A stretch of DNA of 64,000 nt from Brachionus manjavacas (Eukaryota; Rotifera; Eurotatoria; Ploima; Brachionidae): NCBI GenBank assembly GCA_019054805.1, contig JAHQIY010000002.1:5146001-5210000 (forward strand), read 5' to 3'. Under the pieces are notes generated by a model. The model was given only the letters and a program-made list of their open reading frames with translations, had not been told where the DNA came from and did no database searches. A program made the translations under genes and the position numbers. Below, in pieces: positions 15,524 through 38,338 of the stretch (position 1 is the stretch's first letter; each line of letters starts with the position of its first letter).

Positions 15524-18500
15524 TCAACACAAAATTTGATCCCATTGAGGACTGCTTACAACACCCCATACTTTGTAGCATTTGTTACAATTTTTTTGTA
15601 AATTAATCCCTGTATCAGTGAATATTGTCTGCCATTCGAACGACAACATTTCGGTAACTAGAACAACATCTTTAGCAAAATAAGGTATGGTTATAGATTG
15701 GGTCTGTCTTGAAATAATAGAATCGGAAACTTGTAATGGCTGAGTGACTCCATCAACTGAATATATCAATTTAAATCTGGTCAAATATGCGCCATCATTT
15801 CTTACACTTATAGTAAAATTACATCTCGATTTTACCATTAAATCTGCTGATCTTATACTAAATCCTTCAATCTGTGTAGTTTCTGAATTAAATAATTCAT
15901 TTGAAGGACAACATTGTCTGATTTCGTAATCAAAACATTCATTAGGATTTTCTCTATTAAAACAAAAGAAACCATATAACGGAACAAGCCAATTGATCTG
16001 TTCAGTTTGGTTCGCAGGAACTCCATCAACAGTTCTAGCTTGAACACGACTTGGATATTTGCATCCATATTGATGCTCATGGTATAATTCCAAGTCTCCT
16101 TCGCCTGTTTTTGGTGAGTCGTAGTTAAACCATTGTGTCCATTCATTGTCTCCATTACACAATGGATCTGGTGTTGGAATAAGAGTCCAAGAGTCAATAG
16201 ACACATTTGGATTACAGAAAAAATTTGGATTGCTTGGATACGTTTGATTTCTTACGTAACAAACACCTTCAATTTCACATCTATCATCCAAGAAGACTAA
16301 TGAATTGGTTTCTTCATCCTCAGTTCGACATTTAGAATCGTACAAAGTCAAATTAGCCCATTGAATAAAACTCGCATTCGAATAACTTATGTAAATACGA
16401 GCATCAGCTAAAGTGTCTCTTGAAATAAAATTAGTTCTGATGGAATGAATGTTTTTATATAAATTTAGACTGCTAAGTCTATTAAGTCCTATCAAAATAT
16501 TGTTATCAGTAATTGTGTCTGCCACTGAGGTTTCTGTTACAAAATGTGGCCTATTATCAATGTCGTACTTGAAAAAAAATATTTAAATTAATAAATAAAA
16601 AAAAAATTTTAAAATTGAAAATTAAAAATACTTCAGTATATTCAACTTTGACATATATTGGGTCTCTTGTTGAGAACGGGTAACCAAATCCATTAACTAA
16701 GCTACAATTCTCTGTTCTTAGATCACAAAATTGCGGATTGACGGTAAATTCAGTAATATTAGTTAAATCTTGGCTACAGTCAGCGCCACCATATGGTGCG
16801 TTACATTCACATTTAACTTCAAAATTAAATTGAACCAAAAAAAATGATCAATTAAAAAAAATACGTGGAAAAGAACAGTTATGATTGATTACTCCAGGCA
16901 AAATACATCGTTGTTCTTAAAAAAAAAAAATAGAAAACATACAGCAATATAAAAAAATTTTTTTTTTTTTTTCGAGTAGTTTTTTTTTTATTTTTTATTA
17001 CAACTTTTCAACTAAGAATCTCATATATTATCTAAGAATTCTCATAAATTCTAAACTTTGTTCTGGTACAAATTAATGACATCTTTGGTTTAAGGCACAA
17101 GGTTTTCTTATTTGTGAAGCGTAGTGTATGAAATTTGTATTTTTTTAAGATTAATTTCAACCTTGGTTAAAAAAAAGCAAATTTCATAAAGACCACATGA
17201 AAAATAAATTCTTAAAAAATAGACCTAAGTAGTATTCTAATAATGTTTGATGTCTATACTTTTCATTTTTAATAAAGGATAAAGACTTTAATTATAAAAA
17301 TAATAAATTGTCTACCAAATTTACAAACTCCGTTGCCTGAGCAGCCATTTGGACAAAGCATTTGCAAGTCAGTTGGATCACAGTTTGTTTGATTTTTCAG
17401 GATATTTTGAATAGTTATATCTATTGAAGATTCAAGATGAATTTTTACAAATGAAGGATCGCTTGTAAGCTTTTAAAAACCAGCTTAAATTAAAAAAAAT
17501 GAAAATAATGAATAATACTGTGATATCATCGATGCAAAATTGGATCGTGACATTACTGTCTAAGCATCCATTGCTTAAACTATTGTTCAAACCAGGGTGG
17601 TTCATAAAGCTTGTCCAGCAAATGTTAGAAGCCTCCTCAGGCTCTATCTAAATACAATTTTGTAATTTACTTTTATACAATTGAGATAAATTACTTTTTT
17701 GGCAGTTGTTGTAGTTTCCATATCTGGAAATTGAGTTGAAGTCAAGAAATCAGGAGTAGAAGAAATATTTTGATCTGGTGTTATGATTTTAAAATGTCTT
17801 AGAAAATTAGTGTTTTTTTAATTATAAAAAAATTAAAAAAATCTACTTTTCAATACAGACGTGCATAGGTACTTTGCAATAATTGGCCCTATTTGGCGGA
17901 AGATTATAATTATCCTGGTCAAATAGATTAAAATCATCGCATGGACAATAAAAGCTACGTTCAGACATAAGCATGCACTCAGCACAGCGTTTTGTATAAC
18001 TACTTCGTTTGTTGTAAACAGAATTTAAGCTTTTAAAGTAAATTAATAATTAGAATTTTCATAATACATAAAGACTCATTACTTCCAAAAGTCTTTAATT
18101 GAACTTAAATTACTAAAAGGAGACACAAAAGATTCAACTCCATGACGATCAAGAACATACAAATCAGTGTTTCTATTTCCATTTCCATCCCATCTACCAC
18201 ATAGTCCACCGGTTGATTGATAAGTTGAATTCGGTGCTTGAATCGACATTACGGGCATTTCTCTATTTGCCAATTGAAATTTGACCAAAACAGAATCTTC
18301 AAAATGATTTTCAACAGTTCTGATCTAAAAATAAAAAATTTAATTTAAAATAAAAAATATTGGACTTAATCATTTATCTATCTACCAGATAATAGGTGTA
18401 GTAGCTGCCTCCTTGTAGACGAGCACATTTAAAGCTTCCCAAAATAGTTGGTATTGAGTCCCATGTTGCCTTGTTGTTTTCATACATAGAAGAAATAACA

Positions 18501-19223
18501 GGACATTGAGGAATTTCTCGAATGGCTTTGGGACCGATATGGTTTTGTTCTACCGAAACACCATATATCTTAGAAGTTGGTGAAGTATTGCTCTGAACAT
18601 TGCAGAAATCAACAAACATCAATTTTCTATTTTTTTGCACGTAAACAGCGCAATTGCATGAGCCTCTGCTACATTTTTGAAAACCAGAAGTCACTCTTGT
18701 ATTCTTAAAATCATCGTACATAATATAGTGATCACCACTATACTGAAATCCATACCGCCTAATTAGAAACTGTTAAATAAATTAATATTAATTTTTATTA
18801 ATTTATACAATCCATCAAATGTTATGATAATGGGATCATGGTTGGTAGAGCAAACTTGAGCCTAAAAATTAAAATAAAATTTTAGAATGGAATAATGGTA
18901 TTATGAAATTAAGTATAATAGTAAAGTACAAATTGATTAATAATCAATTTTAAAGCTTTTAAATTGGGTCATTAAATTTTAAATTTCAATTTAATCAAAA
19001 GTTTTCCTTGAGTGTAAAATATGTGTATTTTGAAGAAAGTTTCCACACATTTCAAAAAAAAAATCTTGTTGCAACTGGAGCACTAACTTAATAATACTAG
19101 AACAATTTTACTTAGATTTTTCATTCCTTATTGTACTTAATTTCACAAAATCTTGGTAAATTTATTTACTCTTGAAAAATTTGATAAAATAATTCCAATC
19201 AATGCAATAAAAACCAGTTTCAT
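15524..19223 (-). CDS. secreted vWD / EGF-like / WxxW-domain mucin-like protein, minus-strand paralogue
   Basis: Eleven exons on the minus strand: 19223-19170, 18861-18809, 18758-18386, 18324-18083, 18029-17847, 17797-17695, 17647-17519, 17469-17316, 16915-16865, 16816-16632, 16567-15524 (2571 nt, 856 aa). Exon 1 encodes a signal peptide (MKLVFIALIGIIL). Residues about 19-240 form a von Willebrand D-type domain, starting CSTNHDP..TFDGL and ending with GLCGRWDGN. Then come a Cys-rich piece (CAECMLM..FYCPCDDFN), a Thr-rich linker, a conserved C-W-F-N segment and an EGF-like region (about 420-460). A Mucin2-type WxxW domain lies at about 652-729 (WTQWF ... DYEIRQCC). The last about 120 residues form a beta-rich Cys-containing end not shared with the paralogue. 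Likely extracellular. All introns are about 50-60 bp except intron 1 (308 bp), intron 8 and a few near 100 bp. Confidence 0.85.
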
Positions 19224-20289
19224 TTTGTATGTCTTTTAAATTTTGAAAAATATAAATTTTTCTCATTTTTATAGAGATTTTTTATTTTTTATTTTTTTCT
19301 AAATAAATATTTTGTTATTTTAATCTGTATAAAGTCTTTATAAGAAAATATTTGATAGTGTTTTAATATTTTAAATAGCTTATTTAATAAAAGATCAAAA
19401 ATTTTTTCTTAAGAAGATTTGAAACATTACTTGTTAGTATAACTTATCTCTTTTTATCTTAAAAAAAACAATCATTATTTCAGATGCAAGTAGTATATTT
19501 ATAAAAATAACTTTGGACAAATAAATATTGTAAAGTGTTGTTTTAGTTTTTTGATGATTTAATACTTCTCTTTTTCTTTTTAAATTTGACAAAAGTATTA
19601 AAATATACATGTGTATAAAAATTTTTTATAATTAAAAAATATTTATTTTTTAAAGAATCAAATCTGAATCAACATTTATTTTGACTATATAGCAAAGTCA
19701 TGAATAAAATTAATCTTTTATTTTTTTATTTTTAATTAACGAAAGATTTTTTTTAAATTTAAACGTGTTTTTTACAATCTTTTAAGAATTATATTGATTT
19801 GTTCTGATCTTTTTCATTTCATAAATTTTAAGCTCAATGTTTTTTAACACAGCTAATTTATTATATTTAACACATTTCCATATCAAACCATTAAACTCCA
19901 CTTAAATAGCAAGCTTAGCAATCTTCTTCAAAATATTTGATATTAAAAAAATTATTATATTATTGTGAAAAAAAATTGACGTTTTTATTCAGAAATACTG
20001 AGATGAGAAAAAATTTTTTTTAATTAAAGATTGAGGCTTTGATACTTTAATAATATTATTCATTTATTAAATTGAATTAGTCTTCTATTAGGAGAAGTAA
20101 ATTCAAGACGAATTTTGAAATTGACAAAAAAAAACTATTAAAAATGTACTATTCAATCTGGTAACTATTTTTTGGAGAATTGAAAGTTGTTATTCACTTA
20201 TTTCACTTTGTTTTTTAATCAATTCTTCTTTCATCATGGTTGAATACTTATAATATCAAGCGATTGAGCTACATTTCTCCAAAGTTTGA
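19224..20289. other. AT-rich intergenic DNA 5' of the minus-strand mucin-like gene
   Basis: Presumed promoter region of the gene starting at 19223. No clear core promoter motif or repeat seen. Confidence 0.4.
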
Positions 20290-21440
20290 CTGAATATTGA
20301 AAATTGATCAATATTTTAATGTTTTTTTTGACGAGTAGAATAATCTAGATTTTGCTTATCAGTTGCTTCTAATTCCTGTGTTGTCAAATACGGGTTTTCA
20401 GATTACAAATTACAAACTTCATTATTTGTATTAAACATGCATCTGACAACTCGATTAGGTAATAAATTGCCATTTTTGTTAGAAGTTCCAATAAAGTTTT
20501 TTTTTAAACTTTTTTATTCGAAAAAACTCCCAACATTTCGATGTTTTTTTCCTGCGACTGGACTCCTCATCATTTTCATATTCGGAGAATTCTGGGGTTT
20601 CTGTATCTGAAGTAATACTTTCGGGCTTTAATTTTTTGGGGGTGACAAATTTAATTTTTTTAAGATGACAAAAATAACTAAAAGTGGTGACTAATTTAAT
20701 CTATTTTAGCTGACAATAAAACACTAATTATTCTGACAAAAAAACTAAACGACTGACAAATATATATATATTGAGATGACTATTTAATAATTTTGCACTG
20801 ACAAAATTTTATTCATTTCTATTTTATTTTATTTTAGTTCTAATTAAGCTATTTAGTTTGAATTGAGTGGTAATCAAAAGTAATGACCCTATGCTTCACA
20901 AGGAGTGAATAACGAAAAAAAAAGAAAGCTATTTAGTAATTTAATTCTCTAAGATTGTAAGGAATGAACTTAAATTGTTACGTTTTCTCATAGTTGACTC
21001 TAGTTTGATGATGAGATTTGGACAAAACGGTTTGTCATAATTGTCTGGAGCTTCCTTCTGATTTTGGTGCTATAGTTCAAGATTTTGATTTTTATTGTGA
21101 CCTCAAAATCATTAATTTGTTGTAAAATAATTAATTAGTCAAAAAATTATTTTGTCACTCAAATAATTATTTTATCAGTCAATTAATTTATTTGTCATCA
21201 TATGTACCTTTTTTGTCAGTAGATTTAGTCTTTTTTGTCAGTAAAATTTAATTTTTTTTGTCAGTCCATTAATTGATGGCCATACTTTCGTGAAAAGACA
21301 AATTATGAATTTGCTCAACAAATAAGCTTGTGTCCTTATAATTATCTAATTGTCCATTAGAACCTGGCTCTGAATTTTCCGTTCTTTGTTTCTTTTGAAT
21401 ATGAATCGAAGAGGATGATTCTGATATGAGAAGCTAAGTA
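20290..21440 (-). pseudogene. degraded transposase-like remnant with BED-finger-like segment, minus strand
   Basis: Reading the minus strand, 21437-21280 is open for about 50 codons (SESSSSIHIQKKQRTENSEP) and stops at the edge of a repeat array. On the far side of the array, 20625-20486 reads PESITSDTETPEFSEYENDE and then RRKKTSKCWEFFRIKK, whose KxSxxWxFF pattern resembles the start of a BED zinc finger. After a frameshift it continues with NRVVRCMFNTN, which could supply zinc-binding Cys. I infer an N-terminal transposase piece (hAT-type elements often begin with BED fingers), split by the array at 20636-21275. Too decayed to name with certainty. Confidence 0.35.
20636..21275. mobile_element. 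array of opposed TGACAAA units (candidate non-autonomous element)
   Basis: Between about 20636 and 20815 the word TGACAAA or a close variant occurs about seven times on +, every 20-30 bp. Between about 21165 and 21275 the complement TTTGTCA occurs about six times, often as TTTTTTGTCAGT. The two clusters face each other across 350 bp of ordinary sequence, as subterminal transposase-binding repeats do. The ends do not form a long perfect inverted repeat and no target-site duplication is obvious. Confidence 0.45.
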
Positions 21441-21467
21441 TAAAGATAAACATAGTTTTATAAAAGT

Positions 21468-21545
21468 CAGTATAGTGAAGTGGTAATTACAATATATATC
21501 AAACCCAAAGGTAGAGGGTTCGATCACCCATTGTTAAAACACCTA
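21468..21545 (+). repeat. tRNA-like sequence (SINE head or tRNA pseudogene)
   Basis: An A-box-like TAGTGAAGTGG (about 21475) and a B-box-like GGTTCGATCACC (about 21519) lie at tRNA spacing. The acceptor and anticodon stems do not pair well, so a working tRNA is unlikely. It is followed by an A-rich tract. Confidence 0.35.
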
Positions 21546-21871
21546 AAATTAAAAAAAAAAGAAAAAAAGGTTTTTTGAAATTTTGACATTCCTAACTTTG
21601 AGCCCCACCCACAGCCTTAGCAAAATTCAGGTGTAGACATATGAGGTATTTTTTGAGTAGCTGACACTTAGTTGTCCCCAAAAAGTCACAGAAAGAATTT
21701 TTATATCGGAAAAATTTTCAAACAAACAGAGAAACTTGAAATTTTCGGGATTTTATATAAGTAGAAAAAGAAGATTAATTAGGGGAAAATTTTAAAATTT
21801 TGAAATTTAATTTAAGAATTTTTATTCAAAATTAAAAAAAAAAAAATTTTAATTGAAAAATAAAAAAAAAA

Positions 21872-22640
21872 TTTAAAATTTTAGTTGGTAGTAGTAGTTA
21901 GTATAAGTTGGTAGGAGTTGGCAGTTGGTATTTGGTACTTTTAGGTCGTTGGAAGTTGTTGGTTATTGGTTGTTGGCCAACGTCCAACTACCAACAACAA
22001 AAATAAAATTTGCTATTGGTAGTTAGACGTTCTTCCATCAGAAACCCGTATATGACAACAATTGTAGTAAGTTGGGAGTTGGAGTTTGGGGTTGTTGGGA
22101 GTAAGTGATTGGACGTAGGCCAACAACCAATAACCAACAACTTGCAACGACATAAAAGTACCAAATACCAACTGCCAACTTTTACCAACTAATACTAACT
22201 ACTACTACCAACTAAAATTTTAAATTTGTATTCAATTTTTTTAATTAAATTTTTTCTTTTGTTTTTTTTTTTATCAATCTCTAAACAAAATTTTTTTCTT
22301 TTGTTTCTTATATTCTTAAAAATAAAATTTTTATCTTTTTTTTTTAATATTTGAAAATATTTTTTTTAATTAAAAAACTTCTTTTTTAAAATAAAAAATA
22401 TATTAAATTATTTAAATTTTTATTTTATTACAAGTTTTTTTGCCGCCCATATATTTTAGACCGGTTTTTTATACGTTCCAAAATTTTGACCACCAAGCTA
22501 ACCGGCCAAATGACCGCCCGCCAAAAAGTTGGCCGGTTAATTGACCGCCCGTTTATTTTGGTCCAAAATTTCGACCGCCAAGCTAACCGGCCAAATGACC
22601 GCTTAAAACCGTTCGCCCAATGGACCGGTTTTGTCTGACC
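21872..22640. mobile_element. foldback element with 105-bp GTTGGTAG-type arms and a GC-rich direct repeat
   Basis: The sequence from 21872 (AAAATTTTAGTTGGTAGTAG) for about 105 bp is repeated as its reverse complement up to about 22226, with only a few mismatches; the ends of the arms meet GTTGTTGGCC / GGCCAACAAC. Next comes a T-rich stretch, then 22440-22640, which is strikingly GC-rich. That part has two direct copies (from about 22478 and 22563) of a 40 bp block containing AAGCTAACCGGCCAAATGAC. Part of the T-rich centre and a GCCGCCCATATATTTTAG segment resemble the centre of the element at 30014-31030. Confidence 0.6.
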
Positions 22641-23384
22641 GCATCCAACACTATAAATTATTTAAGTTTTAAAAAATAAATTTGTTCAATTTTACAAAAA
22701 AATTTAGGATCAAATATAGGGAAAAAAATTTAAAAAACTAACAAAAATTTAATTTTTAATCTAAAAGAACATCTCACTTTTTCATAACTAGATACATTTT
22801 TATGTTTCTAGACAAATGTTTATTAATAAAAATTATTTTAAAAAGAATATAAAAAAAATTTAAAAATAGATTAAATATTTTTCATAATTTTTCAAATTTC
22901 AGTTATTTTTAAAAAACAAAAACCAATATTCATTTTGAATAGTTTTGACGTAATCACAACTTCACTTAGCTGACTTGCAGGGCATTTGTCCAGATTTAAT
23001 TTGGGCGATTTAGTTTTGATTCAATTTTTTTTAAATTTTTGCTTTTAAGCTTTAAGATTTATTTAAGATTTTTATTTCGTTTAGATTATGAAATAAAAAG
23101 AATTATTGAAAATTCAGACTAATAAAGCAACTGCGGTACTCGGCTAGTTGAGAAACTAATACTGGACCATCTAGACTTTCAAGACACTTTATTGCGCTTA
23201 TCTTGAATATGCATCAGCTTACAAAAATAAAACGATATCAGATAAAAAAGATACCTAAGAGATCTGAGTAGCAGGATTTACGAAACTTCAATCTCGGGAG
23301 TCCTATTTCACCTTTTTACATAGCACCATAGGATTAATGGTTCATTTTATTCAAGTCACGTGTCTCAATGTTCTAAAGACTTCT
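22641..23384. other. AT-rich intergenic DNA
   Basis: No gene seen. The last 250 bp (23110-23384) have better codon-like composition and may be the decayed 5' part of the transposase remnant that follows. Confidence 0.4.
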
Positions 23385-23720
23385 CAAAAATCTTTTCAGG
23401 GAAAGTTGTCTCGCAATTAACCAATATGAATACTTTAATGAATGCATCAAAAAGCGATTGACAGGGGAATACTTCTTGTCACTACGCAAAAAGTGTAGTA
23501 GCCTACCTGGCTGAGCATAAAGTCGATTATGTAGCTAAGGATAAGAACCTTCCTATCCTAACTTAGCGGAAAGTGGAGCGATCGAGGACTTTAAAGGAAT
23601 CTTTGATTGCATTGATTAAATTGATTTGCTGAAAATATGGATCAACTTGTTAATAGGATTAAGTACTTCATCAAAAAGATAGACCGTAGCTTCATTCGAA
23701 TTGATTAAGTAAGAAGAAAA
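23385..23720 (+). pseudogene. Tc1/mariner-superfamily transposase remnant
   Basis: Translation in shifting frames gives YFNECIKKRL, then HYAKSVVAYLAEHKVDYVAK, then a frameshifted DQLVNRIKYFIKKIDRS. This order (NEC-I-KKRL, the HxAKxVxxYL helix, the closing NRIKxxIKKID) matches the C-terminal half of Tc1/mariner-type transposases found in many invertebrates. At least two frameshifts and several stops break it, and the third catalytic acidic residue cannot be placed with certainty. No flanking terminal repeats seen. Confidence 0.55.
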
Positions 23721-24072
23721 TAGCAAAACAGTGAATGAATAATATTTTTAATGTAGTTTAATAATTCCTTTTGAACTAAAAAATTTTTTTTCAAATTTGA
23801 GGGAGCTATGATCCTTTCAAGCCAGTTGGTTATTTTAATCATATCCCGTTATTGACTAAAATATTCAAAAAATCAAACAAATTTAATCTTTTTAAAATAA
23901 TTATCATGTGACAGAAAGAAGAAAGTAGCAATCAGCCAAAGCTTTGCCGAAATTATTTTTAAAATAATTAAAATAAACCATTTAAATATTATTTATTCAT
24001 TCGACAATTGATTTTTATTACTTTACAAATAATTATCGAATAATTAAAAAAAAATAGAATTGTTTTTAAATG

Positions 24073-25973
24073 CTACTCTAAACCTTCTTTTTTATCTTCT
24101 GAGTTTTTAGCCCATGCTTCTGTTTCGCTTTTTGCGAAAATCAAAAAAACCAAAGATCCAACAACATATACCACCAATGAAATAATAAAAACATGACTCC
24201 ATTCATCACTAGTTTTCTAAAAAAAAATGATTCCTTTGAAAACTAAAACTAAGTACAAAATTTACATTTTTAGTTATAATTCCGACCAGAAACGGAGCTA
24301 AAAAAGCGCTTAAATTTCCGATTGTGTTTGCTACACCATAAATAATTCCAGAATAAATTCCACCAATGTCGTTAAAATTAACCAAATAGCCAGAACCGTA
24401 CTGAAATCCACTGAATGATATATTTATTAGAATCATGCTAAAACCAAGCACTCTGCGGCTTGAGTCGGTGTAAATAAGGCCTATGAATGTTATAGCAGGA
24501 ATCAAAAAGCCAATTGAGTTGCATAATTTTCGAATGTTAATTTTTTCAAATTTTTCACTCTTTATCAAAATGTCACTAAACACACCAGACAAGATAATAA
24601 ACAGCCAACATGATAAAAATGGAATTGAACACAATTCTCCATTCTAAAATTCGAATTTTTTAACTTGAAAAATTTTAATAAAGTTCATTTCCTCACGAGC
24701 TTTATATCAAAATCGAGTATTTCTTTCATGTAAGTGGGCAAACATACAGTAAACAAGCTAATTCCGAAATTTCCGCACAAAGCACTCAAAATTAGACATA
24801 AGACTGATTTTGACACGAAAATTTTCCTCCACGGAACATTCTAAAAAAATCACAAGTTTTTAAAAATTTAAATTTTTTTAAGTTAAAAAAAAATTATAAA
24901 AAATATACTCGTTTTTCTTCACTTTTAAAGCTTTGCTCAGCTGTTTTTTCCAATATATAGTTACTTTCTTCTGCTGAAATGCATTTCTGTGCTGAAGGTG
25001 AATCATAAACTGTAAGTATCCAGATAAAACACCAGATAAGTCCTAATATGCCAGTCAAATAAAACAAAGAGGGCCAACCTCCCAAAAATTGGCCTGCACA
25101 CAGAAATCCTCCGATCAAAAACGTCAATGCCTATGAATAGTTAAACAAAATAAATAATTATTTAGCAATAAACTTAAAACTATCTATTTACATTTCCGAT
25201 TAAAGAACCTGAGTTTGAAATTGCTAAAAGTGTAGAGCGTTCTAGAGGTGGTGCCCAGTGAGCCCATAACAAATTTAATGAAGATGTAACAACTCCCTTT
25301 TTAATTTACAATTTTTTAAAATAATTATGCCAGTCTTGGCTATTTTGAAATATTTTTTAAATCAAATTAAAAAAATTACTTGAGCTAATCCGATCATTAT
25401 TCGGACTATTAACAGGCCATGAAAATTAAAACTGGCCGAAATGGGTGTCATGATGGTAAGTGTTGATGAGATTAATACTGAAAAAAATAGCATAAGCTTT
25501 GGACCTAAAATCAAAGCAACCCATCCTCCTATTATCTTTTTTAATAAAGTAAAAAAAAACTTTTTTTAAAATTCATTTAAATTTTACTTGAGTAAAAAAT
25601 GGACCGATTGATATAGCACTAAGAAGAAGACCTTGGTTTTGCTTACTCCAATTAAATGTTTGTTTCTAAAGTCAAAAATTATAATTAATTTTTTAATTTT
25701 TTTAAATTTCACATTTTGAAAAATTGTGTTTAACTCGGTAACATTTGATTTTTCAATAATAGTTTCATTTGTTGGTTGAGTATTTACCATGGACACAATT
25801 GCTATGCTAAGATTTACTCTTTGCATAAAGTGGATTGCATTCAAAAAAAAACATAACAAAGCCAACCAAAATCTGACTGAGAATATCAATTTTGGATCTA
25901 AGAAAAATTAGATTTAAAAAATTTTAAAAATGTCATTTAGTTTAGGCTTACGAGCTTCTTTAACAATAGTCAT
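24073..25973 (-). CDS. SLC17A: SLC17-family (sialin / phosphate / vesicular glutamate transporter-like) MFS transporter
   Basis: Nine exons on -: 25973-25952, 25897-25713, 25665-25588, 25535-25380, 25296-25192, 25130-24909, 24840-24697, 24643-24266, 24216-24073 (1434 nt, 477 aa). SLC17 proteins move organic anions (sialate, glutamate, urate) or phosphate across plasma, lysosomal or vesicle membranes. Family marks are MQRVNLSIAIVSMVN after the first helix, an N-glycosylation-prone first loop, FNWSKQNQGLLL, WAHWAPPLERSTL between helices 4 and 5, VPWRK, LPTYMKEIL, and SGF..GSGYLVNFNDIGG near helix 10. About 12 membrane helices are expected and no domain is missing. The exact substrate cannot be read from sequence. 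All introns are short. A TTTATT (AATAAA on -) lies at 23992-23997. Confidence 0.88.
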
Positions 25974-26648
25974 AGATTAGCCGAGAAGAGTATTTTATTT
26001 TTAAGAGTTCCTCGGAAAATAATATTAATTTATGAAGTGAGTATGTAAATAACTATGCTAAGCCGTATTATTGAACTAAGACAAAATTTGCACAATATAA
26101 GTCTTGCATTTAGTATATAAAATAAATTTTACATTTGTATGCCATTTTATCTTAAAAACAAAAAATTTAATTGTTAGCCTCTAATGTTTTGTTTAGAATT
26201 GAAATTTTAATGAATCGATTTAACAATTTAAGTGAATTTAACTTTCTAAATATTTATTTAATCTGTCTATTTCTTAAACAAACAAATGCGGCAAAAATTA
26301 AAATGTGCTCGGACTAGACATGTAATACTAAATTTTGAGTAAACATTGATAAAAATAGGCTGCAAAAAGGAATTGAAAAAAGCAAACTTTATTAAATTTT
26401 ATCGAATGATGAAAATATATTAATTGAATTATTAATTTTTATAAAATTTCAATTGTTTGTAAACGCCGCAGCCGATTTCGAATATAAATTTTTACTTAAA
26501 ACTGATAAGACCTGATAAGTCTATTCCAATAATTATAGTAAATATCTATTTTTGTAAGTTTTTTGATTAAAAATCTCAAATGAATGACAAAAATTCCCTT
26601 TTCCCAAAAAGTAATTTCCTCTAATAGTGATGGAAGTTTTATCTTTAG
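25974..26648. other. AT-rich intergenic DNA 5' of the SLC17 gene
   Basis: Presumed promoter region of the minus-strand transporter. No distinct motif or repeat noted until the inverted-repeat element that starts near 26649. Confidence 0.4.
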
Positions 26649-27590
26649 TTTAGTTAGCTAAATTTTAGTCGACTAGTTTTTAGTTACAGTACTGCAATGA
26701 TGTTCTGTTTTACGTAATTTTACGTGAAATTACGTAATATCCGGTAATTTTATATAAATTCTGGTAAAATTTACATAAATTTACCGGATTAAACTTAACA
26801 ACTAAAATGAAGCCATTAAAAAATTCACTACAGGGGATGAAACTAACAGTCCTTTTTATTCACCAGGAATCAAAAGAAAGACCGAGAGAACTTATGTAGT
26901 TCCTTTGATTGCGAAGCTATTGAAAACATAAGTATTCTTATATTTATTTTTAATATAATATATTATTTTAAAAATCTTAAAATAAAATATAAAGTCAATA
27001 ATAAGCCATTTACAAATCGTCTCACAATTGGAATAGTGAAGAGATTTGTAAATGACAAAGGACAGACTCTGGGGTATGATGAAAAAAATTTCCTATTGAA
27101 ATCGAGAAATAAAAAGTAAGTATTTTAATGGAAAAAAAACGGGTAGTATCTAATGTGTTTTCTTATTTGAAGAAAGTATCTTCTAATTAATTAGAACAAA
27201 AGTTAGAAGCCTTCTAACTTTTTCGGAAAAATGTAGAATTTCTTTGTTTTTTAATTTTTAGTTAAATAAAATTGGAAAGAGGGGCGTATCTTATTTACAG
27301 GACTATTAAAATGATTTAGATATCAAAGATAAAAATTTTTATTAAGAATGATAAAATTTCAATCTACTTTATGAATTTTTACTTTTTACAAATATTTACG
27401 TAATTTCCAGTAATTATCGTAAATTCTGGTAAAATCCGATAAATTTACTTTTTCTTTACTTTGGTAAATTTACGTAACCTTACCAGAATTTACGTAAAAT
27501 TATCGGATATTACGTAATTTCACATAAAATTACGGAAAAACAGAAAATCATAGCAGTACTGTAACTAAATTTTGTCCGACTAGTTTTTTG
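26649..27590. mobile_element. inverted-repeat element with TTACGTAA-rich arms
   Basis: The left arm (26649-26790) runs from TTTAGTTAGCTAAATTTTAG through GACTAGTTTTTAGTTACAGTACTG into repeated TTACGTAATTTTACG words. The right arm (about 27450-27590) is its reverse complement with scattered mismatches, including CAGTACTGTAACTAAA. A further inverted copy of the outermost 50 bp lies at about 27960-28012, so two right ends or a nested insertion are present. The interior (26800-27120) contains two short coding-like stretches, one with SPFYSPGIKRKTERTYVVPL and one with NRLTIGIVKRFVNDKGQTL followed by a GTAAGT donor. Confidence 0.6.
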
Positions 27591-28057
27591 TTTAGTCGGT
27601 TTAGTTACACCGAGAGTACAAAATGATCTAAAATAAACAGATATTTTTGTGATGCAGAACTCAAGATAAGTATTATTTAAGAAAAAAATAGTTGTTGTGA
27701 GAGGAGTGAGATATCTTAGTGAGACAGTAAAGGGATAGCGGGAAATCATGGGGGGGGGACGCAAGATATAAGGGTAATAGTGAGAAAAAAATTATTTAAT
27801 TTAAATTTAATATTAATCAAGAAAAAAACATAAAATCAAATAACCAAAAAAAAATGCTAATTTCCTAAAAGTTTAAGTCTAAGTCATAAATATTGTTTTT
27901 TAAAAATTTTCCCATAATAATTGAATTTAAAAATTAAACTTTAGTTATTAATTTAAGTAAATTTGACTAAAATTTAGTTAACTAAAAACTAGTCGGCTAA
28001 ATTCTAGCTAACTAAAAAATATGCATTTTTTAGACAAATTTAAAAATATTAAATTAG

Positions 28058-29416
28058 GAAAGCCCTGGAACGCATAGTATTTTCAAGATTATACAATTAT
28101 TTGGAAAAAAATTCACTCCTTATCCAGTAGCAATCTGGATTTAGGAAACACCGGCGAACATCAGATAATCTTTTCTTTTTAATTCAAAAAATTGTGGAAT
28201 CATTTAATAGAAAAAAAAGAGTTTTATTTCTAAAGCCTTTGATAGGGTTTGGCATGAAGGTTTACTTTTTAAATTGATTAAAATGAATCCACCTCATTAC
28301 TTGACTAACTGGATTAGATCCTTTTTAGATAGTAGGACATTTAAGGTAAATGTGAATGATCCTCTGAGCGAAGAATATAAAATAACTGCAGGTGTTTCTC
28401 AAGGCTCAGTAATTAGTCCTCTTTTATTTAGGATATATATTAATGACATCCCCAAAAGGAACAAAACAAATAACGAATACTCTCTGCTTTTCGCAGATGA
28501 TCTAGTTACATTCTTCATTTATAACAAAAAAGGGAACCTAGAAAATAAGTTAAATCAATACACCAACGAACTAGAACAATGGCTTATTAAATGGAAAATG
28601 AAGATATCAGTTGAAAAGTCGTGTTCAGTAGTCTTCTCTAGGTACCAAAAAGAGGGTGATAATCTAAACTTAAAAATCTATGGAAACAGAATAGTGAGCC
28701 AAAAAGAAATCAAGTTTCTAGGTATTAAATTTGATTCTAAATTAAACTTTAATATACTGGTAGACGAAATTAAAGAACGCTGCAATAAAAGGCTAAATAT
28801 TATTAAGATATTGTCAAATAAAAAATGGGGTCTTACTCAAAACACACTAGGAAATTATATAAATCTTTAGTCGGATCGATTTTAGACTATTCTTTTCCTT
28901 GCTTGAATTCATTTTCAGTAAATAATATCAAAAAACTACAAGCAATTCAGAATACAGCAGTAAAATCTATCCTTAAGTTAAAATATGATACTCCCTCCAA
29001 CATCGTGCAACATGAAGCTTTTAATAAACTAAAATTACTAACAGTCTCGAATCGTCTTTTTAAGTTGAGTGAGAAATATGTTGGGACAGGACTGAGTCAT
29101 TCTATTCCATTGGTTGAAAGACTGGTGAAAGAATACAAAGAAGGTTTCGAATCAAGAAATATTGAATACCCAACTCCATTGTGTAATTGCTACTTTACTA
29201 TTTCTTTTTTTTTTCCTGAAACTTGAACTATTTAAACATGTGCCACATGTAACAATCTTTTCCAATTTATGTCTTTTCAACTTTCATTTTTTTAGCTTAT
29301 TTACTCTATTTTGATTCTTTTTTTTTATCTAATTTTATTAACTTTAATTTTATTTTTTTTATTTTATTTTTAACAGAAAACAAATAAATAAATAAATAAA
29401 TAAATAAAATAATAAT
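28058..29416 (+). pseudogene. 5'-truncated LINE, family 2, reverse transcriptase to 3' tail
   Basis: Similarity to the family-2 RT copy at 60.7-61.7 kb begins abruptly at about 28058, inside the RT domain. The copy then runs through SGFRKHRRTSDN (broken frame), SQGSVISPLLF, the catalytic LLFADDL and the thumb, to a stop near 29226 and a tail of AAAT repeats at about 29382-29416. There is one deletion before 28274 and a frameshift near 28850, so it is dead as a gene. Abrupt 5' truncation plus an A-rich simple-repeat tail is the usual outcome of target-primed reverse transcription. Close nucleotide similarity to the other copy suggests recent activity of the family. Confidence 0.85.
29382..29416 (+). 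repeat. AAAT microsatellite, LINE tail
   Basis: Eight or so AAAT units directly at the end of the LINE copy, followed by AAT units. Confidence 0.8.
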
Positions 29417-30013
29417 AAAAGTATGAGAAAATAAAAAAATGTTTCAATAATATGATTTGGCCTGGTGTTCCAAAAGAAATTGGAATTGAAAAATACACAA
29501 TTGTTTTTTAATTCTTGGCTAATTCGATGGCTTTAATCGAAAAAATAAATTGTTTAAATTTAGATCAACTAAAAAAGTTTCATTTTTTTTTAATTTATTT
29601 AATTTTCAAGCTCTTTTGATATCATCTCGTTCATGTTATCGTTTTTATTAAAGAATATTTAAATAATATCAGACGGTCTAATCCGTAGATGAGGATGCAA
29701 AAAACAGATATTTGAATTTAGGAACATCATAGAACAAAGTCTGAAACGGAACTGCCCATTTTACATTTGATAGCATACACTGAAAAACCTTTTGGGACAA
29801 ATCAAGATCTGTGAACTTGATAAAACTCTTCTATGAGAAATTTGGGTGCAGCGTGTTTCTGGAAGAAGGACAAACTGTGTACAGGAGTCAGACAAGGGTG
29901 CTTTCTCTCTGCGAGACTATTCCTAATTCTGATTGACTGAAGTCATGAAGAAAACAACTTTCACTTCGAGAGTCTATTTTTATTGAGGAAAACTCATAAG
30001 ATATCTATTATAA
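29417..30013. other. intergenic DNA
   Basis: No supportable gene. 29650-30000 is less AT-rich and has short open stretches but no coherent protein. Confidence 0.4.
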
Positions 30014-31030
30014 TCTTTGTTTCTGAACCAGAGTTGGTCAAAAGTCAAACTTTAAAGTCAGAATCGTCAAAAGTCAAAGTCAAAGTCTGACTTTGACTTG
30101 AGTTCAAAATTATTTCAAAGTCAAAGTCTGACTTTGACTTGAGTTCAAAATTATTTCAAAGTCAAAGTCTGACTTTGACTTGAGTTCAAAATTATTTCAA
30201 AGTCAAAGTCTGACTTTGACTTGAGTTCAAAATTATTTCAAAGTCAAAGTCTGACTTTGACTTGAGTTCAAAATTATTTCAAAGTCAAAGTCTGACTTTG
30301 ACTTGAGTTCAAAATTATTTCAAAGTCAAAGTCTGACTTTGACTTGAGTTCAAAATTATTTCAAAGTCAAAGTCTGACTTTGACTTGAGTTCAAAATTAT
30401 TTCAAAGTCAAAGTCTGACTTTGACTTTGAAATAAACTTTATTTTCTTCTTTTTTTTTTTTAATTTTTAAATAAAATTTTTTTTCTTCTTTTTTTTTTTT
30501 TTTTAATTTTTAAATTTAATTTTTTTAATTAAAAAACTATTTTTTTTTAATTAAAAATATATTAAATTAACTTAGATTTTTTTTTTTTACTTTTTTCTTG
30601 GCAGCCCGTTTATTTTAGAAAAAATAAAAATAAAAATATTTGGTGGGACTTTTGAAAAAAAAAAAAGTCTTGACTTGAACTTTTAAACAACTCTGGTCCA
30701 GACTTGACTTCAAAAAAAAAAAATTTAAAGTCAAAGTCCAGACTTGACTTCAAAAAAAAAAAATTTAAAGTCAAAGTCCAGACTTGACTTCAAAAAAATA
30801 AAATTTAAAGTCAAAGTTCAGACTTGACTTCAAAAAAATAAAATTTAAAGTCAAAGTTCAGACTTGACTTCAAAAAAATAAAATTTAAAGTCAAAGTTCG
30901 GACTTGACTTCAAAAAAATAAAATTTAAAGTCAAAGTCCAGACTTGACTTCAAAATGAAAAAAAATTAAAGTCAAAGTCCAGACTTGACTTTGACTTCAT
31001 GACTTTGACTTTTGACCATCACTGTTCTGA
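30014..31030. mobile_element. 1 kb element made of palindromic GTCAAAGTC tandem repeats
   Basis: The left half (30100-30430) holds eight copies of a 41-bp unit, each containing a 23-bp palindrome (AAGTCAAAGTC T GACTTTGACTT). The right half (about 30695-30990) holds about seven copies of a 40-bp unit containing AAAGTCAAAGTCCAGACTTG. Between them lies a 260 bp T-rich centre with GGCAGCCCGTTTATTTTAG. The outermost ends (TTCTGAAC..GAGTTGGTCAAAAGTC at 30017 and its near complement ending at about 31030) form an imperfect terminal inverted repeat. No coding capacity. Confidence 0.65.
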
Positions 31031-31586
31031 ACATTATTTTTTATCATTTTTGTCAAAAGATTAATATTTTTTGAAATTTTTGTAAGTCTTTCGATTTAAG
31101 TCAAATATAAAAAAAATGATGACAAAACAGAAAAAGCGACTAAATAACAAAAACAGAAGTTAAACTTTTCTATTCAAGGACAACGTAAAAGGAAAATGAA
31201 ATTTTCTTCCAATTATTGATATAATTAAATTTTAGCAGTGCATTTTTCTAATCAAAAAGATTTTAATTATTTATTCAAGGAGAAAAGTAAATTTTTAAAC
31301 AATTCTTATTTCATTATTATTTTTTTCTAAAAGCCATTTGAAATGTAATCTTAATTCATTTTAAAGAAATGTAAAATGCCGTATGCATTAATTCCCTAAG
31401 TCTATAAATCAATTTTAGATTAAATTAATTAAATTTCATCATTTGATTATGAAGTTTTTTCTTTGGAAATCTATATTAAAAACGCTTAGATATTTTTTGT
31501 GTAAAAAATATGTCAATTCACATCATTAGAGAAGAATTTCTTTATTTAAATTCAAATGTAATTGTTTTTAAAACATTCTAACTTTT
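31031..31586. other. AT-rich DNA 5' of the plus-strand mucin-like gene
   Basis: Presumed promoter region; no distinct motif seen. Confidence 0.4.
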
Positions 31587-34500
31587 ATGATGAACATTTT
31601 TTTTATTTTTTTGATAGGTTTAGCATCTATCGATCACTTAAGAGTAACTTAAATTCCCTTAATATTTTAAGCAAATTTTAATTTAGCTTGTATAGGCCCA
31701 AGTTTGTTCTACCAATTATGATCCTTATATCACTACATTTGATGGATTGTATAAATTAATAAAAATTAATATTAATTTATTTAACAGTTTCTAATTAGGC
31801 GGTATGGATTTCAGTATAGTGGTGATCACTATATTATGTACGATGATTTTAAGAATACAAGAGTGACTTCTGGTTTTCAAAAATGTAGCAGAGGCTCATG
31901 CAATTGCGCTGTTTACGTGCAAAAAAACAGAAAATTGATGTTTGTTGATTTCTGCAATGTTCAGAGCAATACTTCACCAACTTCTAAGATATATGGTGTT
32001 TCGGTAGAACAAAACCATATCGGTCCCAAAGCCATTCGAGAAATTCCTCAATGTCCTGTTATTTCTTCTATGTATGAAAACAACAAGGCAACATGGGACT
32101 CAATACCAACTATTTTGGGAAGCTTTAAATGTGCTCGTCTACAAGGAGGCAGCTACTACACCTATTATCTGGTAGATAGATAAATGATTAAGTTCAATAT
32201 TTTTTATTTTAAATTAAATTTTTTATTTTTAGATCAGAACTGTTGAAAATCATTTTGAAGATTCTGTTTTGGTCAAATTTCAATTGGCAAATAGAGCTAT
32301 GCCGGTTTTGTCTATTAGAGCACCGAATTCAGTTTTTAAGTCAAATGGTGGACTTTGTGGTAGATGGGATGGAAAAAGAAATACTGATTTGTATGTTCTT
32401 GATCAACATGGTGTTGAATCATTTTTGACAACATCAAGTTTGTCTAAAATTGGTAGTTTCTGGAAGTAATATTGTCAAGATAGCTGTTTAAATGGGAAAT
32501 TTTGTTACTCTTTTTAATAGTCTTAACTCTGTTTACAATAAACCGAATAATTATACCAAACGTTGTCCTGAATGCATGCTTATGGCCGAAAGAAGTTTCT
32601 ACTGTCCATGTGATGATTTTAATCTTTTTGATGACAAAAACTACAATCTTCCACCGAATAGACTCAATTATTGTAAAGTACCTATGTATGCCTGTGTCGA
32701 AAAGTAAAAAATAAAAATTTATATCTATTTTGTATTTTATGTTAATCTAATTTTTTTCTCTAGACATTATAATTTCATAAATCCCAACCCAACAACTCCA
32801 TCAAGTTTTTTTTCAACTACTCGACCAGGATCAATAAGTACAAATAGCTCAGGTATTCATACAACTTCTAATGGAGATATTTGGACCGGAAGCAATTGGT
32901 CAACCAATCAACCAGTACACAATCAAACATTGGTAACTCAACCAATTACCACAACTTTGAAACCGGTATTTTTAACTATATTTTTTTTTACAAGTTAAAT
33001 TTTCTTTCAGATAAGTCCAGAACAAGCTTTTAATATTTGTTGGACTGGCTTTATGAATCAACCTGGTTTAAACCATGTTCTAAACAACGGATGTTTAGAT
33101 TTAAATATTACTATGCAATTCTGCATTGACGATATTACAGTAAAATTTCGTTTTATTTATTTTTAATTTTTAAGTAAAATTTTAATTAAGCTTACAGGTG
33201 ATGAATCCTTCTTAAATATTCACATTGAATCTTCAGTGGATATAACAATTCAAAATATCTTGACAAATCATTCCAATTGTGATTTAACTGATTTGCAACT
33301 TCTTTGTCCTAATGGCTGTTCTGGCAATGGAGTCTGTATATTTAGTAATTCTTTTTTTTTTAATGTCTAAATTAAATTAAAAAGAAAAATATAAAATTTT
33401 AACAATATAACGTAAACTAGATGATTTATCTAGGAAATTAATGGACGCAATATTAAATTCTTATTAAAATCAATCACATGACTAATTTTTTCATAAATTC
33501 TGAAAAAAATAGAGAATTGAGAGTTCTTTTTTTTATATGAAAGAACTTGGCAATTTTCTGTGAAATATTTTTTATAAAATAAGCATCGATCTGATGAATT
33601 TTTCAATTTAAGAACCGATGTGTTTACTGCCTGGAATAATTTCTGGAGATTGTTCAAATCCAAGTAATCAAACAAAAACTGTCCTGCTTTTCTTTAACTT
33701 ATAATTTTAAAGTTAAATGTGAATGTAATGCACCATATGGTGGCGCTGACTGTAGCCAAGATTTAACTAATATTGCTGAATTTACCGTCAATCCGCAATT
33801 TTGTGATTTAAGAACAGAGAATTGTAGCTTAGTTAATGGATTTGGTTACCCGTTCTCAACAAGAGACCCAATATATGTCAAAGTTGATTATACTGAAGTA
33901 TTTTTAATTTACAATTTTAAAATTTATTTTTTATTTATTAATTTAAATATTTTTTTCAAGTACGACATTGATAATAGGCCACATTTTGTAACAGAAACCT
34001 CAGTGGCAGACACAATTACTGATAACAATATTTTGATAGAACTTAATAGACTTAGCAGTCTAAATTTATATAAAAACATTCATTCCATCAGAACTAATTT
34101 TATTTCAAGAGACACTTTAGCTGATGCTCGTATTTACATAAGTTATTCGAATGCGAGTTTTATTCAATGGGCTAATTTGACTTTGTACGATTCTAAATGT
34201 CGAACTGAGGATGAAGAAACCAATTCATTAGTCTTCTTGGATGATAGATGTGAAATTGAAGGTGTTTGTTACGTAAGAAATCAAACGTATCCAAGCAATC
34301 CAAATTTTTTCTGTAATCCAAATGTGTCTATTGACTCTTGGACTCTTATTCCAACACCAGATCCATTGTGTAATGGAGACAATGTATGGACACAATGGTT
34401 TAACTACGACTCACCAAAAACAGGTGAAGGAGACTTGGAATTATACCATGAGCATCAATATGGATGCAAATATCCAAGTCGTGTTCAAGCTAGAACTGTT

Positions 34501-36080
34501 GATGGAGTTCCTGTGAACCAAACTGGACAGGTTAATTGGCTTGTTCCATTATATGGCTTTTTTTGTTTTAACAGAGAAAACACAAATGGTTGTCTGGATT
34601 ATGAAATCCGACAATGTTGTTCTAAACTTGAATTGTTCACTACCACAACCACATTTACAACTATAACTTCTTCAAAAACTGAAGAATTAACAACTGAATG
34701 GAATGAAATAGTTAACCCTGAAACTGAACTAAATTTATCATCAGTAACCGCTTCTTTTTCTTCATCAACCACTTCAACTCGACCAATTGACCAGTTTAGC
34801 ACTGAATCAGAACAAATTCAGGATACAACTGAATGGAATGAAATAGTTAACCCTGAAACTGAACTAAATTTATCATCAGTAACCGCTTCTTTTTCTTCAT
34901 CAACCACTTCAACTCGACCAATTGACCAGTTTAGCACTGAATCAGAACAAATTCAGGATACAACTGAATGGAATGAAATAGTTAACCCTGAAACTGAATT
35001 AAATTTATCATCAGTAACCGCTTCTTTTTCTTCATCAACCACTTCAACTGAAGAATTAACCAGTTTGATATTTGACCAGTCTACCACAATTCATGATGCA
35101 ACAACATTCATTGAATATTCAACATCTTTTTCTACCCAAGTTGATGCAGAAACTACTCTTCCACCAATAAGTTGTCAATACACCCTCGATATTGATGCTA
35201 AAGATAACATTGTTTCATTTTTGGAATCTTCAAGAGTTCAATCTTTAAATTTCAATCTAAAAACAGAAAATGTTTGGTGCAACGAACTGCAACATGTCGA
35301 ATTAGAGATTGTGCCTGAATCTGTTTCTGCTACTTTGTATCAAGATTTCGATGCCTCAAATGATACAAAAATTGTTACCAGCTTTTCAACTTTTACATAT
35401 AACTTTACTTTACTTGACGATAACTTGGTAGAACCTTTCGAATTTTTCGTTCTCAAAATTAGAATCTTGTCCTCCACAATACCATCAAATAGTTTATTTG
35501 TACCAGACTTTATTTATGTTTATATACAAGATGATGATTGTAAAAAAAAATTTTTAATCTAAAATAATATTTAATTTTTCTTTTAGACAATGAGGTACAA
35601 AACAATGGAAAAATTTTCAATATCTTTGCACCAGAAATAGCTAGTTCGGATTTTTTTTCAGCTTTCTATACTGATTCAGCTTTTAATAATATCTATCCAG
35701 TCGAGAATAATCAAGCCTTATTTACAAACCAAGGTGGATTTTCCATTCCGCTTCCAAATATAAATATAGTCGTTGAAAATACTGGAATAGTTTCATATAA
35801 ATTACATTCAGTTGAAGTACATAATCCAGAAGTTTGTAACATTGATAGCTTTACCATTCGACGCAAAAGCTTTTTAGATGACCAATACTTCGATGCTTTT
35901 GAATTAAGATCACTTTACTTAAATGGTGTTGCATTTGTTGACGTTGATTTTAATAAGTTTGTCTTTAATTTAGGATCTAATGGAGATGATTTACAAAGAA
36001 TGGACATTAAAGTCTTGTCAACTAAAAATGGAAAAGATATTAACAATTGCGAATTCAGAGCTTTTGCAGAGGCTAACTGA
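31587..36080 (+). CDS. secreted vWD / EGF-like / WxxW / Calx-beta-like mucin-like protein, plus-strand paralogue
   Basis: Twelve exons: 31587-31643, 31696-31748, 31799-32171, 32233-32465, 32521-32703, 32764-32965, 33011-33139, 33191-33344, 33613-33663, 33713-33897, 33961-35539, 35587-36080 (3693 nt, 1230 aa). A signal peptide (MMNIFFIFLIGLAS) is followed by a vWD-type domain (20-240, ending GLCGRWDGK), the CPECMLM..FYCPCDDFN piece, a longer Ser/Thr linker than its paralogue, and an EGF-like region. The WxxW domain is at about 683-760 (WTQWF ... DYEIRQCC). Ser/Thr-rich 45-residue repeats (about 785-904) come next, then a Calx-beta-like domain (about 930-1065, DDNLVEPFEFFVLKI, DDD end) and a new C-terminal domain. 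Exon boundaries and phases match the minus-strand gene from exon 1 to the start of the big exon. Probably a glycosylated extracellular or matrix protein. Confidence 0.85.
34693..35050 (+). repeat. 135-bp coding tandem repeat (45-aa mucin-like units)
   Basis: Two full copies and a partial third, starting at 34693, 34828 and 34963. The unit includes TEWNEIVNPETELNLSSV and a Ser/Thr block. Copies are almost identical at the DNA level, so the array is young and probably length-variable. Confidence 0.9.
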
Positions 36081-36927: not shown

Positions 36928-38271
36928 TTGTGCATAACTAACTGCTTATTCTCTCGCGTCAAAGTGCCGCCTAAACAAATTCCTGATCCATGTATTTGCA
37001 AGCATGCAATCAGGGTAAAAATAAATAAGAAAACCGGTGAAATTATTAATCGAACAACAATCCTCAAGTCTCTTATTAGCCTTGATTTGGAACTAACCGA
37101 ATCTATAGATACTGTTACCACGATTGGCAAAAATATCTGGTTTGTATCGTTCAAAGAAAGTTTTGACTATAAAGTTTTAATTGGAAAATGTTTACCGATT
37201 AACGAACACATTGTATCAATCAAAAACGCTGAGGAACCATTAAAAAATGAAAAAATTTTTACATTCAAATTTTACGGACTTAAACCAAACTTTGACAAGT
37301 ATTTGATTGAAAAACACCTCATTTCTGAGGGTGTCTTGTTAATGGAAATCGTCAATATTTATGATGAATTTATGAGCGAATCGGAATTTCGTCACATGAA
37401 AACTGGAACAGTCCGTGCCAAGCTGAAATTCAATGCTGTCCAAAATATAAAATACTATGAAATTGTGAAAAAAATTCCAAAAAATGCGTATATCCAAGGA
37501 CATCCAGTTTCGATTGAAAGAGTTGGAGAACCCCAATGTCGTTTTTGCCAAAGTACGGAACATAAAGTAATACACTGCAAACTCAAAGACCTAAAATGTG
37601 TCAAATGTAATGGACTTGGGCATACTGCACAAGAATGCAACCTAGCAAGACGAATTGCCAAGTCAAACGATGATCATCTATTTGATGATGGTGAAGGAGT
37701 TGAAATCTCAGTAGTTGACGAAATTGAACCCCAAATCAACAAAATTACATCCCAGTCTAGTAATTTGAACAACAAAAACGACCAAAACACACAAATAATG
37801 ACGAATGTGGACACAAATGGTGACGAAGTTAATTATCAATCACGTCAATTTGGGAATAAACCCCCCTCCAATGAAAATTCCAGCTCAAACGGAATGCCAT
37901 TACCAAATATTCAAACGCCATTTGGACACAATCCTTTGGGACAATTACCTACAATTAATACTCCAAATAAGGCACCTGACCTTTTTAATTTTCCAGCAAT
38001 TAATTTCCCAATCCGACCTAGCCCAACACGTCTGTTAAGCGCTCCAATGATTTCAAGATTATCAAAGCCGGCTAAGACAAATCGGACTCGAAAGCTTGGC
38101 CAAAAGTCCACTCCGGAAAGTGTCACTGGGAAAAAGGCTCGGACTAGCAGGAAAAATAAAAAAAACACCAAAAACAAAGAAAACGAAGAAAGTATGGACT
38201 TTACGGACAAGGAAATCGAATCAGAAGCCTCAAAACTTCTCAATCTCAGTTCAAGCAAGCCAAATTCTTAA
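36928..38271 (+). CDS. LINE family 1 ORF1, nucleic-acid-binding Gag-like protein with two CCHC knuckles
   Basis: A 447-codon open frame that has no ATG before codon 138, so the start is lost, non-ATG, or upstream across a mutation. The N-terminal two thirds resemble the RRM-like Gag region of Jockey/CR1-type elements. Two zinc knuckles of the form CX2CX4HX4C follow: CRFCQSTEHKVIHC and CVKCNGLGHTAQEC. The C-terminal third is Asn/Pro-rich, then strongly basic (KKNTKNKENEE). It lies 67 bp ahead of ORF2 of the same element. By family knowledge it coats the LINE RNA and chaperones it to the target. The long intact frame suggests limited age. Confidence 0.8.
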   Translation: MCITNCLFSRVKVPPKQIPDPCICKHAIRVKINKKTGEIINRTTILKSLISLDLELTESIDTVTTIGKNIWFVSFKESFDYKVLIGKCLPINEHIVSIKNAEEPLKNEKIFTFKFYGLKPNFDKYLIEKHLISEGVLLMEIVNIYDEFMSESEFRHMKTGTVRAKLKFNAVQNIKYYEIVKKIPKNAYIQGHPVSIERVGEPQCRFCQSTEHKVIHCKLKDLKCVKCNGLGHTAQECNLARRIAKSNDDHLFDDGEGVEISVVDEIEPQINKITSQSSNLNNKNDQNTQIMTNVDTNGDEVNYQSRQFGNKPPSNENSSSNGMPLPNIQTPFGHNPLGQLPTINTPNKAPDLFNFPAINFPIRPSPTRLLSAPMISRLSKPAKTNRTRKLGQKSTPESVTGKKARTSRKNKKNTKNKENEESMDFTDKEIESEASKLLNLSSSKPNS

Positions 38272-38338
38272 TTAATTTCAATTTTTCTTATTAAATCTTA
38301 TTTACTTATTTATTATTTTTTTATTAAATTTTTATAAA

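Follow-up and report, generated by a model that had tools for sequence, protein, structure and literature searches.

When two genes of one genome are almost identical in two internal stretches and as different as old relatives in the sequence between, which of these kinds of sequence records their history? The question is raised by two genes, here called A and B, that lie head to head in a 64,000-nucleotide stretch of DNA from the rotifer Brachionus manjavacas (the window; G000:C2:5146001-5210000, in a genome assembly of 114 Mb and 61 contigs). The comparisons described below make it very probable that sequence of A has replaced the matching sequence of B in two stretches, by interlocus gene conversion that ran one way. 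An initial annotation had proposed gene conversion between inverted copies, and silent sites, introns, a run test and comparison with a protein of Brachionus plicatilis now support that proposal. The direction of copying, its relative date and the family context are new here, while the process itself is already known.

The two genes were modelled as follows.

15524 to 19223, minus strand: gene A, the probable donor; 11 exons, 856 amino acids; VWD, EGF-like and Mucin2_WxxW domains, then a tail
31587 to 36080, plus strand: gene B, the probable recipient; 12 exons, 1230 amino acids; a VWD/EGF-like/WxxW module as in A, then Ser/Thr-rich repeats and a tail
16865 to 16915, minus strand: micro-exon 9 of A, 51 nt (gene model)
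33613 to 33663, plus strand: micro-exon 9 of B, 51 nt, in the EGF-like repeat; seen in all four paralogues

The copies are inverted with respect to each other, their start codons are 12.4 kb apart, and the DNA upstream of one is unlike that upstream of the other. All introns of both are GT-AG, there are no internal stops, and both models are open. Exons 1 to 10 pair one to one and exon 11 is alike for its first ~690 nt; past that point the tails are unrelated and B has one exon more, so the exon structure that the initial annotation regarded as shared throughout is shared over this module and not in the 3' tails. Counterparts of the micro-exon are visible in the related proteins P0001, P0002, P0003, P0005 and P0006, and P0004 ends before its position. 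It was included in the coding and protein alignments used for silent-site divergence (dS), for regional identities to P0001, for site counts and for trees; models without it served for the Pfam scan, the exon and intron identities, the tail protein match, the genome protein search, the search that gave the nearest named proteins and the overall identity of A to P0001.

The alignment of A and B (2845 positions, 506 differences) was segmented by a hidden Markov model (HMM), for which the Bayesian information criterion was 2672 with one state, 2108 with two and 2085 with three. The segments are these, those of A being the HMM counterparts.

31735 to 32296, plus strand: tract 1 in B; from the end of exon 2 through exon 3 to the start of exon 4, with introns 2 and 3
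18261 to 18822, minus strand: tract 1 in A
32297 to 33709, plus strand: unconverted middle of B, from inside exon 4 into intron 9; 69% identical to A in protein, with a dS of 1.18
16820 to 18260, minus strand: matching middle of A
33710 to 34513, plus strand: tract 2 in B; from the last 3 nt of intron 9 through exon 10 and intron 10 and over most of the shared part of exon 11
16015 to 16819, minus strand: tract 2 in A
34514 to 34640, plus strand: diverged remainder of the shared module in B, about where paralogue similarity stops; 25 of 127 positions differ, dS 0.89

The segmentation bears out the two near-identical tracts and the diverged sequence between them. Tract 1 differs at 2 positions and agrees at 560 of 562; tract 2, in the three-state fit, agrees at 795 of 805, with one of its 10 differences an indel; the sequence between differs at 460 of 1312 positions (two-state fit), as do 9 of the 39 before tract 1 and, in the three-state fit, the 25 of 127 after tract 2. 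The edges of tract 1 lie inside exons 2 and 4, where the initial annotation had put them, and its introns do take part in the near-identity, though it holds two differences and not about one. The identity of about 98% noted earlier for tract 2, intron included, also stands, but not the fading toward its 3' end: there is an edge near 34513, followed by ordinary divergence. The two-state fit places this end at 34525, with 11 of 817 positions differing.

Such a pattern has to be judged against the rest of the family. Two more paralogues lie on contigs C14 and C5 and are named here after them, and A and B, judging from the sequences, are old members of a four-gene VWD/EGF-like/WxxW family that are not closest relatives in the middle region. 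In the genome, a protein search returned at least 29 matches: 27 fall at the four loci, and the other two, on C8, are weak (E 3e-4) and lie in the EGF-like part. Tract 2, searched as DNA, gave two further 61-base matches, on C17 and C3.

Silent divergence between A and B is 0.016 in tract 1, 1.18 in the middle, 0.020 in tract 2 and 0.89 after it, which is not the even divergence across exons that would have counted against conversion. The same four regions give 0.57, 0.70, 0.88 and 1.41 for C14-C5, and the five pairs other than A-B range from 0.54 to 1.21 within the tracts. Introns 2, 3 and 10 of A and B are 100, 98 and 92% identical, against 58-70% in the other comparable pairs, and the introns of the middle are 51-63% alike. 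Exons follow suit: exons 3, 10 and 11 are 100, 98 and 95% identical between A and B (exon 11 with its diverged end included), against 74-86% in other pairs, while exons 4, 5, 7 and 8 give 82, 78, 74 and 79% for A-B, 80, 84, 74 and 76% for A-C14 and 82, 78, 74 and 78% for A-C5. In exon 6 the corresponding values are 51, 73 and 68%. Beside and between the tracts, then, A has diverged from B about as far as from the other two paralogues of the genome.

Formal comparisons agree. Branch lengths specific to each region were favoured over proportional ones (twice the log-likelihood difference 302.5, 8 degrees of freedom); the path from A to B measures 0.007, 0.487 and 0.012 in tract 1, middle and tract 2, and that from C14 to C5 measures 0.23, 0.24 and 0.27. 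In a run test over the 719 polymorphic positions among 2130 ungapped coding positions of the four paralogues, the two longest runs of A-B matches were 114 and 69, where 10,000 shuffles gave none above 45, and the longest runs in the other five pairs were 4 to 10 (lowest p 0.021, for A-C14, uncorrected). The tracts thus stand in diverged flanks beyond chance and include silent sites and introns; A, the probable donor, keeps its own sequence, as its identities to P0001 below show. Among the explanations tested, conversion alone accounts for two tracts in which silent sites and introns have hardly diverged while the same gene pair is highly diverged elsewhere.

The direction and date of the copying come from other species. 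The nearest named proteins are from B. plicatilis and Brachionus calyciflorus, and P0001 of B. plicatilis is the orthologue of A, 88% identical to it over the module. In tract 1, middle and tract 2, A is 91, 92 and 91% identical to P0001, whereas B is 91, 69 and 89% identical; conversion is favoured here too, because P0001 matches A evenly and B only in the tracts. Sites at which A and B agree against P0001, relative to sites at which A and P0001 agree against B, number 13:0 in tract 1, 8:68 in the middle and 22:5 in tract 2 (Fisher p 1.4e-10 and 1.9e-11 for the tracts against the middle), and the 117 informative sites show 19 switches along their length, where the minimum in 20,000 shuffles was 34. 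Were A the copy derived from B, it should be less like P0001 in the tracts, and it is not; A is accordingly taken as the donor.

In the middle tree the branches of A and P0001 are similar (0.047 and 0.035), so the near-identity of A and B in the tracts is not due to a slow A. Since B there falls outside both A+P0001 and C14/C5, the separation of A and B predates the split from P0001 and the tracts became alike after it. Most likely, therefore, the copying came after the split from B. plicatilis. Of 151 residues in tract 1 A and B differ at 1, and of 247 in tract 2 at 6; the corresponding counts for A and P0001 are 14 and 23 (B differs from P0001 at 28 in tract 2), which on a rough clock would put the copying at ~0.07 and ~0.26 of the age of that split. 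The nucleotide counts (2/562 against 10/804, p 0.14) give no support for tracts of different age; inside tract 2, 6 substitutions lie in the first 217 positions and 3 in the other 587 (p 0.014, for a boundary picked after seeing the data). A separation of A and B before the split from B. calyciflorus was dropped as a proposal, the middle tree having P0002 outside A, B, C14 and C5. Past tract 2, 10 of 28 sites have A and B in agreement against P0001, but this comparison was set aside: the deposited P0001 leaves the family alignment there, which looks like an annotation error.

The protein trees are less uniform in their verdict. P0007 (Owenia, E 5e-8) was left out of them and of the alignments that include the micro-exon, P0008 is in no tree, and for lack of coverage P0003 is missing from the tract 1 tree and P0004 from the tract 2 tree. 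For the middle, the approximately unbiased (AU) test rejects an A+B clade (0.0005) and also a placement of B inside a clade of A, B and P0001 (0.014). Topology within the tracts is weak, yet branch lengths and site patterns conflict between tracts and middle. Several results do weigh against the conversion of B by A. In tract 1 the grouping A+P0001 is rejected by AU (0.045) and not by the Kishino-Hasegawa or Shimodaira-Hasegawa tests (0.078), in tract 2 the AU values of A+B and A+P0001 (0.504 and 0.496) do not separate the two, and positions of B outside and inside the A clade receive AU values of 0.572 and 0.428 in tract 1 and 0.337 and 0.663 in tract 2. When the sites shared by A and B are polarised by the other paralogues, only 4 of 13 in tract 1 and 2 of 22 in tract 2 show a clearly derived state in A and B, against 6 and 8 at which P0001 has the derived state; five sites of tract 2 join A and P0001 against B. 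Outside the tracts, the 13 residues before tract 1 are closer to P0001 in B (85%) than in A (62%), and adding the signal-peptide exon to them makes A the closer (77 against 56%). P0001 was compared as protein only, and protein searches with length and word limits found no orthologue of B in B. plicatilis, so that an unconverted B has not been seen. One candidate, P0008 of B. plicatilis (296 amino acids), is closest to C5 in tract 1 (87%), and over its first 117 aligned middle residues matches B at 78%, below A (83%), C5 (85%) and C14 (88%); it was not used as the orthologue of B.

Other explanations have to account for the same alternation. A recent duplication of the whole gene, with fast and uneven divergence of the middle afterwards under positive selection or relaxed constraint, would be consistent with the nonsynonymous divergence there, which is higher for A-B (0.216) than for A-C14 (0.143) or A-C5 (0.158). 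It fails at the silent sites and introns of that region, which have diverged as well, and in exons 5 and 6 C14 is closer to A than B is, while in the middle A joins P0001 in a clade that excludes B; the early judgement that simple recent duplication does not suffice was sound, and we give this account practically no weight. Extreme purifying selection on both tracts is equally hard to credit: the tracts do encode the Pfam-matched part of the VWD domain and most of the WxxW domain, but near-identity of introns and silent sites is confined to A-B, the same tracts in the other five pairs having the dS values given above. Reciprocal exchange, through a double crossover or recombination linked to an inversion rather than one-way copying, is conceivable in that inverted copies 12.4 kb apart could recombine. 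It would swap the tracts and not make them alike, and A stays P0001-like through tract 1, middle and tract 2, which leaves this route very improbable.

A sequence of A pasted into B during assembly or polishing is a distinct worry, because the work is based on one assembly and on assembled sequence alone, a limit that bears on the conversion itself. The four junctions lie at homologous places, however, and both genes stay open. The tracts are inexact copies, their 2 and 10 differences lying above the average heterozygosity of 0.0016 reported for a single gene, hsp82, of the B. plicatilis complex (PMC3495898; the value for this genome may differ), and homogenisation by read mapping would not be expected across ~20% divergence. 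An artefact is thus quite unlikely, and its dismissal in the initial annotation is plausible. Copying via complementary DNA is ruled out by introns 2, 3 and 10, which lie inside the tracts.

Gene conversion could have proceeded by homology-directed repair of B. A break in B would have been repaired with A as template, whether on the same chromatid, the sister or the homologue, and the extent of copying would have been limited by homology. The tracts lie within the genes and contain short introns, and the start of tract 2 falls at the end of the diverged intron 9, which fits homology as the limit. The 1.4-kb unconverted middle would call for a pair of separate events or for a single, discontinuous one. 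Copying would have bridged roughly 20% divergence, provided that the lost sequence of B had diverged as far as its flanks.

There are partial precedents. According to PMC3966223, on the Caenorhabditis elegans genes fog-2 and ftr-1, conversion took place between linked paralogues whose coding regions are 82% identical, in a stretch of 77% identity, and the same review reports tracts that include introns. A and B resemble that case as linked, diverged paralogues; fog-2 and ftr-1 are in tandem, and their conversion events were obtained in experimental populations and probably helped by a neighbouring ~70-bp stretch of full identity (PMC3966223), whereas A and B are inverted, lie 12.4 kb from each other and carry two tracts of greater length on either side of an unconverted gap. 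Closer in arrangement are the divergently oriented Caenorhabditis pairs with maintained inverted repeats, described in part of PMC1803023 as head-to-head genes with near-identical first parts and diverged 3' parts; their intergenic sequence lies inside the inverted repeat, whereas upstream sequences of A and B are unalike and identity is in two internal tracts. Closer in taxonomy is the concerted evolution of mmr-b in the B. plicatilis complex, the species group of the nearest named relatives, which concerns near-identical tandem repeats (PMC3495898); the present paralogues are old and diverged, the ends of their tracts are mapped and the copying has a direction. Among the titles and abstract beginnings listed for gene conversion (in rotifers, in Brachionus, in inverted repeats or palindromes), for divergent paralogues and for WxxW, von Willebrand and mucin proteins of rotifers, none concerned this locus. 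As far as covered, work on rotifer gene conversion deals mainly with bdelloids and, in Brachionus, with near-identical repeats. What the present locus offers is cleanly bounded conversion with a direction between paralogues of dS ~1 outside the tracts, and so a place to ask how much divergence ectopic repair tolerates. Trees built from whole coding sequences of such genes, and duplication dates taken from them, can mislead.

The module itself has above-cut-off Pfam matches to VWD (PF00094) and Mucin2_WxxW (PF13330) in both genes, and EGF-like models fall below the cut-off in A and B and likewise in P0001. The best VWD stretch covers profile positions 1-66 of 156. Gel-forming mucins are marked by VWD and WxxW (CysD-like) domains, repeated VWD-C8-TIL units and a C-terminal cystine knot. 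In A and B, Pfam detected one VWD stretch only, and neither C8 nor TIL nor the cystine knot had a match at E<=0.1; in view of the missing repeated units and knot, the genes are not classed as gel-forming mucins.

All four genes have the common VWD/EGF-like/WxxW core and a different tail in each. That of A resembles the C-terminus encoded by a multi-EGF gene on contig C1 (77% in DNA, 69% in protein), with which its last ~108 residues (window 15524-15850) are shared (C1:2243814-2244100, L026), and this likeness suggests domain shuffling at the tail. The tail of B is 40% identical to P0002 of B. calyciflorus over 99% of 351 amino acids; Calx-beta is below the Pfam cut-off in P0002, and the tail of B itself has no match to it. 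One element of the B tail is not in that of A:

34690 to 35066, plus strand: Ser/Thr-rich tandem repeat, unit ~135 bp (self-BLAST, gene models)

In the C14 paralogue (L020) a CBM_14 chitin-binding segment (E 1e-9) lies 3' of the Ser/Thr-rich tail in the same orientation, its splicing to the gene being assumed. The C5 paralogue has a single open frame (L022:2700-4340) in which WD40 repeats follow directly on the WxxW module, an unusual ending for a protein with secreted-looking relatives. Its intron 10 (L021 and L022) measures 5405 bp, against 63-68 bp in the three others, and no stop-to-stop frame of at least 90 amino acids is listed in the L022 part of it. In tract 1, the dS of A-C5 is 0.54 against 1.30 in the middle (Fisher p 0.0006, uncorrected), and C14-C5 and A-C14 show no significant drop; the A-C5 value is possibly the trace of an older exchange. 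That the family forms a system in which parts of the core are homogenised by repeated conversion and the tails are swapped is a speculative and rather doubtful extension.

Elsewhere in the window, two RVT_1 frames lie 3' of B at 39286-41145, after an open reading frame with no Pfam match, in a span from 36928 to 41145. A further RVT_1 frame at 28274-28870 belongs to a region that matches 61017-61747 at 93%. All three (36928-41145, 28274-28870 and 61017-61747) are retroelement remnants. Upstream of B, at 30054-31012, there are two tandem-repeat arrays that are 70-73% alike, in direct and inverted orientation.

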